Positions 18,691 to 29,457 of a stretch of DNA of 34,893 bases are shown in pieces. Position 1 is the first letter of the stretch; each line of letters begins with the position of its first letter. A program made the position numbers and the translations under genes. A model generated the notes under the pieces. It worked only from the letters and a program-made list of their open reading frames with translations, was not told the origin of the DNA and did not search any database. Origin of the DNA: Nocardioidaceae bacterium (GTDB taxonomy: Bacteria > Actinomycetota > Actinomycetes > Propionibacteriales > Nocardioidaceae); contig JAICRS010000003.1 in NCBI GenBank assembly GCA_025966335.1, positions 1 through 34,893 on the forward strand. Reading direction: 5' to 3'.

Positions 18691-18718
18691 AACAAACAGT
18701 CAAGCCTGCCTTTTTGTT
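18691..18718. promoter_or_regulatory. Candidate TetR operator (AACAAACAG N10 CTTTTTGTT)
   Basis: Inverted arms 18691-18699 and 18710-18718 match at 8/9 positions; AT-rich island 15 bp upstream of the TetR start. Confidence 0.4.
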
Positions 18719-18850
18719 GAGACGCGAGTTTTTCGCGTGTGAGACGCGAGTTCTTTACGTGCGGCCGGGGCCGCGCGACGGACCGTCGCGAAGACTCCAC
18801 GTCTCACCCGCAAAAACTGCACGCCTCAACGGGGAAAACCTCACGTCTCA
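18718..18850. repeat. 22-bp repeat array A: 2 forward units, spacer, 3 inverted units
   Basis: Forward units 18718-18739 (tgagacgcgagtttttcgcgtg) and 18740-18761 (tgagacgcgagttctttacgtg). Inverted units 18785-18806, 18807-18828 and 18829-18850 (reverse complements tgagacgtggagtcttcgcgac, tgaggcgtgcagtttttgcggg, tgagacgtgaggttttccccgt). Confidence 0.8.
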
Positions 18851-18852
18851 AC

Positions 18853-18906
18853 GGGGGTGGGGGTGGGAGGGAGGGGTGGGGTCAGGGTGGGTGGGAGGAT
18901 GGGGGC
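18853..18906 (+). other. G-rich tract with G-quadruplex potential immediately upstream of the GNAT start
   Basis: Many consecutive runs of at least 3 G: gggggtgggggtgggagggaggggtggggtcagggtgggtgggaggatgggggc. Confidence 0.6.
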
Positions 18907-28162: not shown

Positions 28163-28792
28163 GTGGAGACTGCGGCCGAGACCCGACAGGAGCGCAAGGC
28201 GCGGACCCGACGGGCGATCCTCGCCGCGGCGCTGGACATCGCGGACGAGCAGAGCCTGGCCGCGCTCTCGCTGCGCCAGGTGACCCGGGAGGTGGGCATC
28301 GTGCCGACCGCGTTCTACCGCCACTTCGCGTCGGTGGAGCAGCTCGGCCTGGCCCTGGTCGACGAGTCGTTCGCGTCGCTGCGGGAGATGATCCGCGACG
28401 TGCGCCGCGGGAACCCGGAGCTGCACGGCGTGATCCGCGGCTCGGTGGGGGTTCTCGTCGAGCACGTGCACGACCAGCGCGCACATTTCCGGTTCATCGG
28501 CCGTGAACGGTTCGGCGGCGTGCCCGCCGTACGCACGGCCATCCGGCACGAGCTCGAGCTCTTCGAGCGCGAGCTGGCCACCGACCTGGCCCGGCTGTCG
28601 GACCTGGACGCCTGGACGTCCGAGGACCTCCGGGTGCTGGCGAACCTGATCGTGAACGCGATGGTCTCCACCGCCGAGGGGATCATCAGCGCGCCCCCGG
28701 AACAGCCCGATGCCGAACGCGCGATCATCCGCACCGCCGAGAAGCAGCTGCGGATGATCGTGGTCGGTGCGGCCAACTGGCGCTCGAGCTAG
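28163..28792 (+). CDS. TetR-family regulator divergent from the ferredoxin-reductase/desaturase genes
   Basis: RKARTRRAILAAALDIADEQSLAALSLRQVTREVGIVPTAFYRHFASVEQL. GTG start at 28163. Confidence 0.88.
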   Translation: METAAETRQERKARTRRAILAAALDIADEQSLAALSLRQVTREVGIVPTAFYRHFASVEQLGLALVDESFASLREMIRDVRRGNPELHGVIRGSVGVLVEHVHDQRAHFRFIGRERFGGVPAVRTAIRHELELFERELATDLARLSDLDAWTSEDLRVLANLIVNAMVSTAEGIISAPPEQPDAERAIIRTAEKQLRMIVVGAANWRSS

Positions 28793-28793
28793 C

Positions 28794-28903
28794 CGAACCG
28801 TCAGGTTTGGTGTGCCGAGCCGTCAGGTTTGGTGTGCCGAGCCGTCAGGTTTGGTGTGCCGAGCCGTCGGGTTTTGCGGGTCGAGCCGTCGCGTATGGCG
28901 GGC
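28794..28903 (+). repeat. 22-bp repeat array B, forward block: 5 contiguous units
   Basis: Units at 28794, 28816, 28838, 28860 and 28882. Units 2 and 3 are identical (cgagccgtcaggtttggtgtgc) and unit 1 differs from them at one position. Confidence 0.92.
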
Positions 28904-29017
28904 CGGGTCCGCGCGGTCCGCGCCGGGCCATCCGTCCGAGCGCCGTGATCGTCCAGGTGGACGGCAATGACGTCGGGGACCGTGCAGGGTGAAACCCCGC
29001 GGAGCGCCGTACGGGCA

Positions 29018-29061
29018 GCCCGCCAAACCTGACGGCTCGGCACGCAAAACCTGACGGCTCG
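29018..29061 (-). repeat. 22-bp repeat array B, inverted block: 2 units
   Basis: Reverse complements cgagccgtcaggtttggcgggc (29018-29039) and cgagccgtcaggttttgcgtgc (29040-29061). Confidence 0.92.
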
Positions 29062-29079
29062 GCGAGGGAGGGGTTAGGG

Positions 29080-29457
29080 CTAGGCGGTCTGCCACAGACC
29101 CATCAGGTTGCCCTCCGGGTCCTTGAAGTAGGCGGAGAACCCCATGTCGGCGACGGCCTGCTTGGCGATCACCGTGCTACCGCCGAGCTTCTCGATCTTC
29201 TCCAGCGACCCGTCGATGTCCTCGACGTCGACGACGATCACCGGTGACCCGACCGGAGCGTCGCGCTGCAGCATGCCGCCGTTGATGAACCCTGGCTCGC
29301 TCGGCGGGCCCTGCTCGTCGGTCGGACCGGTGGAGACCATCGTGTAGTTCATCTCGGGCATGTTCATGATGTTCCAGCCGAAGACGTCGGCGTAGAAGCC
29401 CCGAGCCCGGTCCCCGTCCTCGAACGGGATCTCGAAGTGGACGACGCGACCTGTCAT
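29080..29457 (-). CDS. VOC/glyoxalase-family protein
   Basis: VVHFEIPFEDGDRARGFYADVFGWNI...FKDPEGNLMGLWQ. Confidence 0.9.
   Translation of the reverse strand: MTGRVVHFEIPFEDGDRARGFYADVFGWNIMNMPEMNYTMVSTGPTDEQGPPSEPGFINGGMLQRDAPVGSPVIVVDVEDIDGSLEKIEKLGGSTVIAKQAVADMGFSAYFKDPEGNLMGLWQTA

Follow-up and report, generated by a model that had tools for sequence, protein, structure and literature searches.

Inverted arms made of repeats are known from eukaryotic foldback transposons such as FB, Galileo and Tm1, whose terminal inverted repeats consist of tandem direct repeats on both sides of a variable middle. Among bacterial elements, the closest described systems include the REPs, defined as small palindromic stem-loop units that carry an unpaired GTAG or CGTC tag on one side. 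Both types are extragenic and are found downstream of genes as well as between convergent ones, and the CGTC type lacks a dedicated transposase (Di Nocera et al. 2013, PMC3733652). The element described here lies in a stretch of 34,893 nucleotides (the window) from the draft genome of a Nocardioidaceae bacterium and is referred to as element B. A second element of the window, element A, is included for comparison (Table 1).

The layout reported for element B by the first-pass annotation, i.e. five forward and two inverted 22-bp units around a 114-bp spacer, starting 1 nt after the TetR stop codon (28790-28792) and ending 18 nt before the stop of the convergent gene, was confirmed. Tandem repeat analysis resolved the left arm into four contiguous 22-bp copies and a degenerate fifth (TRF period 22, score 137-156), and the two inverted copies at 29018-29061 are 91% alike. 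The potential to form a very long hairpin could likewise be verified, since the arms 28814-28859 and 29018-29063 show 91% complementarity across 46 nt and strong folds are predicted for both strands. For the 268 nt of 28794-29061, the RNA of the + strand has a predicted folding energy of -178.3 kcal/mol (z = -9.1, reached by 0 of 200 shuffles) and that of the - strand one of -153.7 kcal/mol (z = -7.5). The spacer showed no homology to the spacers of other elements. A coding role for the array was rejected, since the period of 22 is not divisible by 3 and the listed open reading frames across the array lie in overlapping frames.

Table 1. Features of elements A and B and the genes adjoining element B, in window positions.
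Feature	Position	Strand	Description
Element A left arm	18718..18761	+	Two units, class 2 dialect TGAGACGYGNNNTTTTCGCCGT
Element A right arm	18785..18850	-	Three inverted units
TetR-family regulator	28163..28792	+	Separated by 1 nt from the left arm of element B
Element B left arm	28794..28903	+	Five contiguous 22-bp units, class 1 dialect CGAGCCGTCAGGTTTKGCGGGC
Element B spacer	28904..29017		114 bp; secondary stems in the predicted fold
Element B right arm	29018..29061	-	Two inverted 22-bp units
VOC/glyoxalase-family gene	29080..29457	-	Convergent with TetR; stop 18 nt past the right arm

Two known systems can be set apart on the basis of this layout. Like CRISPR, the array contains direct repeats at a fixed period, but its units are contiguous without spacers, its arms face each other and there are many loci per genome. 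CRISPR was therefore rejected, in agreement with the initial description. With intrinsic bidirectional terminators, the element shares a hairpin between convergent genes right after the stop codons. It differs from them in that stems are many times longer and built from repeats, that it is dispensable at orthologous sites and that no U-tract terminator matched in 28500-29400, which upholds the earlier view that this is not a simple terminator. No match to a sigma-70-like promoter was found at element B. A scan of the element against Rfam 15 gave nothing above the gathering threshold, the sole match being a plant miRNA-hairpin model with 39 bits compared to a gathering value of 268, and a known RNA family was rejected.

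An isolated array would have spoken against a repeat family, and this was looked for; instead, similar arrays are plentiful in the same genome and in some relatives. The source assembly is fragmented, comprising 3.03 Mb in 371 contigs at 78% completeness. A degenerate two-unit pattern allowing up to 3 mismatches gave 63 matches across the whole genome compared to 4 for the reversed-pattern control, so the arrays do not arise by chance. With a unit-profile scan of the contigs containing pattern matches, a minimum of 57 arms with two or more units each was determined on 33 contigs or stretches, and since several contigs (C90, C214, C235) start inside an array, these counts are lower bounds. The step between units was 22 in 122 of 128 cases. 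Two unit dialects were distinguished: class 1, CGAGCCGTC-NNN-TTKGCGGGC, with 14 arms including those of element B, and class 2, TGAGACGYG-NNN-TTTTCGCCGT, with 43 arms including those of array A. The order is nearly always forward array, spacer, inverted array, and the spacers differ among the two-arm elements listed. In class 2 arms the outermost unit is closest to the consensus, with an inward decay of the mean scores from 27.9 via 25.1 and 23.2 to 19.5, and these arms are adjoined on the outside by a tract rich in C and poor in G, with CGT or CGC at its end. In 8 of 40 arms starting with TGA, this triplet coincides with the stop codon predicted for the adjoining gene. Gaps carrying elements were convergent in 14, codirectional in 13 and divergent in 7 cases (n=34), compared to 23, 110 and 62 element-free gaps (n=195), which corresponds to an enrichment of convergent gaps (14/34 vs 23/195, Fisher p = 1e-4). 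These genes were called by a simple codon-usage script, so that single gene boundaries may be off.

Array A (18718-18850) is flanked by a divergent gene pair, of which one gene is on the - strand and the other, GNAT-like, on the + strand. Its right arm is adjoined at 18853-18905 by a G-rich tract, GGGTGGGAGGGAGGGG..., the complement of the C-rich tract outside other arms, which could form a G-quadruplex. At another locus (L068:119-1317, contig C214 of the source genome, G000), the facing arms of a class 1 element enclose an IS3-type transposase pair, giving the appearance of an IS inserted there.

The anatomy was read from forty loci of the relative G284, in which 615 unit matches stand against 71 for the reversed pattern. 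Here an element consists of n forward 21-bp units, a central hairpin unit of approximately 26 bp with a loop of 4-6 nt, and m inverted units, with arms of 1-8 units, a unit step of 21 in 122/123 cases and an outer GC as boundary in 72 of about 88 arms. Median distances are about 6 nt to stop codons and about 79 nt to start codons. Elements occupied 23 convergent, 17 codirectional and 1 divergent gap (n=41), while element-free gaps were convergent in 4, codirectional in 40 and divergent in 23 cases (n=67). The convergent enrichment (23/41 vs 4/67, Fisher p = 8e-9) refers to background gaps drawn from the same fetched stretches and not to a random genome sample. Long hairpins are predicted for arrays of this family. 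Among the matches listed for G284:C1 (exact + strand units), none fell at about 2.05-3.25 Mb or 5.09-6.03 Mb, and the distribution of units along the chromosome looks uneven among these matches.

Compared with REP and BIME sequences, the family shows the same tendency in several respects: the copies are numerous, short and extragenic, the families are specific to a lineage, one genome holds several types, the location is downstream of genes and between convergent ones, and facing copies can form large hairpins. The initial statement that the array is unlike REP/BIME thus did not hold, as the family shares with the REP class its dispersal, its lineage specificity, its position at 3' ends and between convergent genes, and its hairpin potential. 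What stands of the contrast is limited to the head-to-tail arms, the absence of a GTAG- or CGTC-tagged palindromic unit and the absence of a RAYT. The 22-bp unit has neither a stem-loop of its own nor a GTAG/CGTC foot, the central hairpin of G284, although perfectly or almost palindromic, carries no unpaired tag, and, unlike in BIMEs, the units run head to tail in facing arms of up to 8 or more. No RAYT (Y1_Tnp, PF01797) was found in any of 30 genomes, array-rich and array-poor, while positive controls were detected; seeding driven by a RAYT was therefore rejected. This sets the arrays apart from the GTAG REPs, and in having no known transposase they resemble the CGTC REPs. The host belongs to the Actinomycetota, a phylum that the text of PMC3733652 does not mention. 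The family behaves as a REP class and yet is not a member as defined in PMC3733652, given the missing tagged palindrome and the tandem arms. To the foldback transposons FB, Galileo and Tm1 there is a likeness of form only, namely inverted arms of tandem direct repeats; the present elements are bacterial and short, show no target duplication, and the one transposase type searched for, Y1_Tnp, was not found.

A scan of 299 genomes of the family with GAGRCGTSN{10,18}GAGRCGTS gave tens to hundreds of matches in a few Nocardioidaceae genomes, with 0-4 matches for reversed controls except in G280 (12 control matches). G003, from the same genus, showed 51 matches and the g7 genomes G229, G264, G270, G274, G284 and G316 showed 107-212 each, while most other genomes of the family were at background (0-3). 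The GAGRCGTS core is common to the arrays in relatives, with periods of 19-22 and units specific to each genome: 22 bp in G003 and G007, 21 bp in G270, G284 and G150, 20 bp in G010 and 19 bp in G065. Outside the family, a class-wide sample of 395 genomes gave practically no similar excess, apart from G600 with 8 matches. Matches in Bacteroidales and Chloracidobacterium MAGs were rejected, L054 being an A-rich simple repeat and L055 containing no such array. In some other g7 genomes, differently spelled facing or tandem arrays (e.g. L180, L196) were recognised by eye. Upstream of sdhB, L180 (G202), L184 (G256) and L196 (G242) carry facing or tandem 22-bp arrays of another spelling, CGAAAGGTGACCCATCAACCCG and CGCAACCCCCGCACTTCGAGCC; G202 and G242 have few or no GAGRCGTS matches. 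No description of arrays of this type in Nocardioides was found in the open-access literature.

At orthologous sites across related species, the element is present, lost with a remnant of 4-8 nt, altered in unit number, or represented by a hairpin of different sequence. A comparison of unit number had been proposed at the outset, and it does differ between related species at orthologous sites. The gap between ohr and sdhB contains a 68-bp element in G284, a 47-bp element in G249, none in G268 and G229, and an unrelated hairpin in G280 and G270. On the sdhB side of this gap, a conventional hairpin is kept in G284, G249, G280, G268 and G229, and a similar one occurs in G274 and G264. In the same gap, an apparently repeated hairpin GATACGACGGGACGTT...AACGTCCCGTCGTATC was noticed at L172, L169 and L170 (G270, G280, G316), the inner stem of which varies and yet pairs in each copy.

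Three further orthologous sites (e1-e3) were compared by eye across nine relatives. At e2 the element occurs in G284, G316, G270 and G280, which differ in the number of units and in the core; G316 shows extra unit copies at an orthologous site. In six relatives (G268, G274, G304, G264, G249, G229) e2 is empty, leaving about 10 nt between two stop codons and no hairpin, and most of these sites keep a remnant of the unit (CTCG, CGCCTCG). At e3, G249 retains GTCTCG, and G268 and G304 carry a differently spelled hairpin element (L261 and L258, respectively) with CCGAATC...GATTCGG ends where G284 has the GAGACGTCA element. At e1, facing repeats of GCCGACTCGGCGAGGGGTGTGGTCAGGAC... were seen in L251 and L254 (G280, G274), apparently a dialect with a longer period of about 31 bp. 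No target-site duplication was visible between full and empty states at the three sites in nine relatives, although old insertions could have lost it. For the few sites compared, the wide distribution at e2 together with the remnants suggests that the history of the arrays includes losses as well as gains.

Within the inverted arm, neighbouring units resembled each other more than under permutation (p = 0.0007 in G284, 0.002 in G270), the corresponding values for the forward arm being p = 0.12 and p = 0.07. The facing arms pair because both are built from the same unit, and when a single unit class is considered, pairing between facing units is no better than between units taken from different elements. 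An excess of pairing within elements of the source genome was rejected, as it vanished once the two unit classes were separated. Covariation in 34 central hairpins showed no excess, with 4 pairs changed on both sides compared to 3.8 in shuffled data, and the paired percentage was reached by 38/500 shuffles. One column pair (AU/UA) stands out with p = 0.001, uncorrected over about 50 positions. The variable triplets of facing units were paired to 39.9% compared to 48.8% when permuted (p = 0.001 pooled), a difference carried by G284, of which G270 shows the same direction only and which is absent in the source genome. Selection against pairing of these triplets, an idea framed after viewing the per-position values, is unproven. 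A bias of G.U over A.C on the sense strand was not significant (109 to 87, p = 0.13). Loss of SbcCD as a permissive condition was rejected, since SbcD was present in 12/13 array-rich and 7/13 other genomes.

Altogether, the family has many copies of strict periodicity, which are homogenised inside each genome and differ from one genome to the next. Its members are placed directly after stop codons, mostly between convergent genes; between related species, copies were gained or lost and unit numbers changed, and neighbouring units are copies of each other. Our preferred reading, which we hold tentatively, is that element B is a dispersed, lineage-specific foldback repeat of the REP class, with arms that grow by duplication, and that it forms a hairpin at the 3' end of mRNA where it is transcribed. 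The likeness of neighbouring units in the inverted arm points to growth by tandem duplication of units, probably through slippage or unequal exchange. Upon read-through from either neighbouring gene, the transcript would fold into a long imperfect hairpin just past the stop codon, which may help to end the mRNA or to protect its 3' end. Judged from position and predicted fold, such a long 3'-terminal RNA hairpin for either strand is the most likely effect where the element is transcribed. After stop codons the element would be tolerated or mildly useful, and elsewhere it would be purged. Against a role as RNA hairpin, orthologous convergent gene pairs do without the element, and against the 3'-hairpin reading, some elements, including element A, lie between divergent genes.

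The main rival, in our estimate a less likely one, is that these are purely selfish or neutral foldback repeats, spread by a putative transposase or by template switching during replication or repair and found after stop codons because insertion elsewhere is harmful. The patchy high copy number, the genome-specific dialects, the presence or absence between related species, losses without replacement and the absence of evidence for selected pairing are all consistent with this, and CGTC REPs likewise have no dedicated transposase (Di Nocera et al. 2013, PMC3733652). The placement, however, is very tight (0-20 nt past stop codons), no target duplication and no Y1_Tnp transposase in 30 genomes were found, and orthologous sites in relatives carry other hairpin elements of different sequence, which suggests that a hairpin is useful there or that the site is a hotspot.

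It is improbable that the units form an array for a putative DNA-binding protein loading cooperatively on two-turn units of 21-22 bp, which would insulate convergent genes or organise the chromosome. Such a protein could account for the regular period of 21-22 bp, the conserved flanks around a variable NNN core and the GAGRCGTS core common to different genera, whereas a period of 19, 20, 21 or 22 depending on the genome, the differences in the rest of the unit and the many related genomes near background argue against it, and the facing architecture would be left unexplained.

A dedicated, required bidirectional terminator for convergent genes is more doubtful still. While convergent enrichment, the position immediately after the stop and hairpins predicted from both strands would fit, and the C-rich, G-poor tract outside arms of the source genome could favour Rho, there is no U-tract, codirectional and divergent copies exist, convergent pairs at site e2 have neither the element nor a substitute hairpin, and the ohr-sdhB gap keeps its conventional hairpin beside the array as well as in species without it. 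Least probable of all are cut-and-paste transposon ends with multiple transposase sites of the Tn7 type, or miniature derivatives of these, since the inverted arms of about 22-bp sites and the outermost units closest to the consensus in the source genome are outweighed by spacers that differ and are not homologous, by the absence of shared cargo, with only ordinary genes or the apparently inserted IS3 between distant arms, and by full and empty sites that show no target-site duplication, so that Tn7-like ends were rejected.

Beyond the reading of element B as a REP-class foldback repeat, it is conceivable, though we would not yet count on it, that the arrays represent an undescribed bacterial class of tandem-arm foldback elements, which keep their architecture and their location at 3' ends, whereas the sequence and period (19-22 bp) of the unit are rewritten in each genome, so that one orthologous site can hold different dialects. 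If true, facing arrays would have to be generated and homogenised by a dedicated process.

The arrays also account for breaks in assemblies of this kind, several source-genome contigs starting within an array. With the present family, the REP-class repeats gain a family from the Actinomycetota of unusual build. Through its tandem arms, the absence of a RAYT and the fast turnover of dialects, it uncouples the transposase of REPs from their hairpins and 3'-end position. As full, reduced and empty sites are available in closely related array-rich species, the old question of a benefit to the host or to the extragenic palindromes themselves becomes directly testable.
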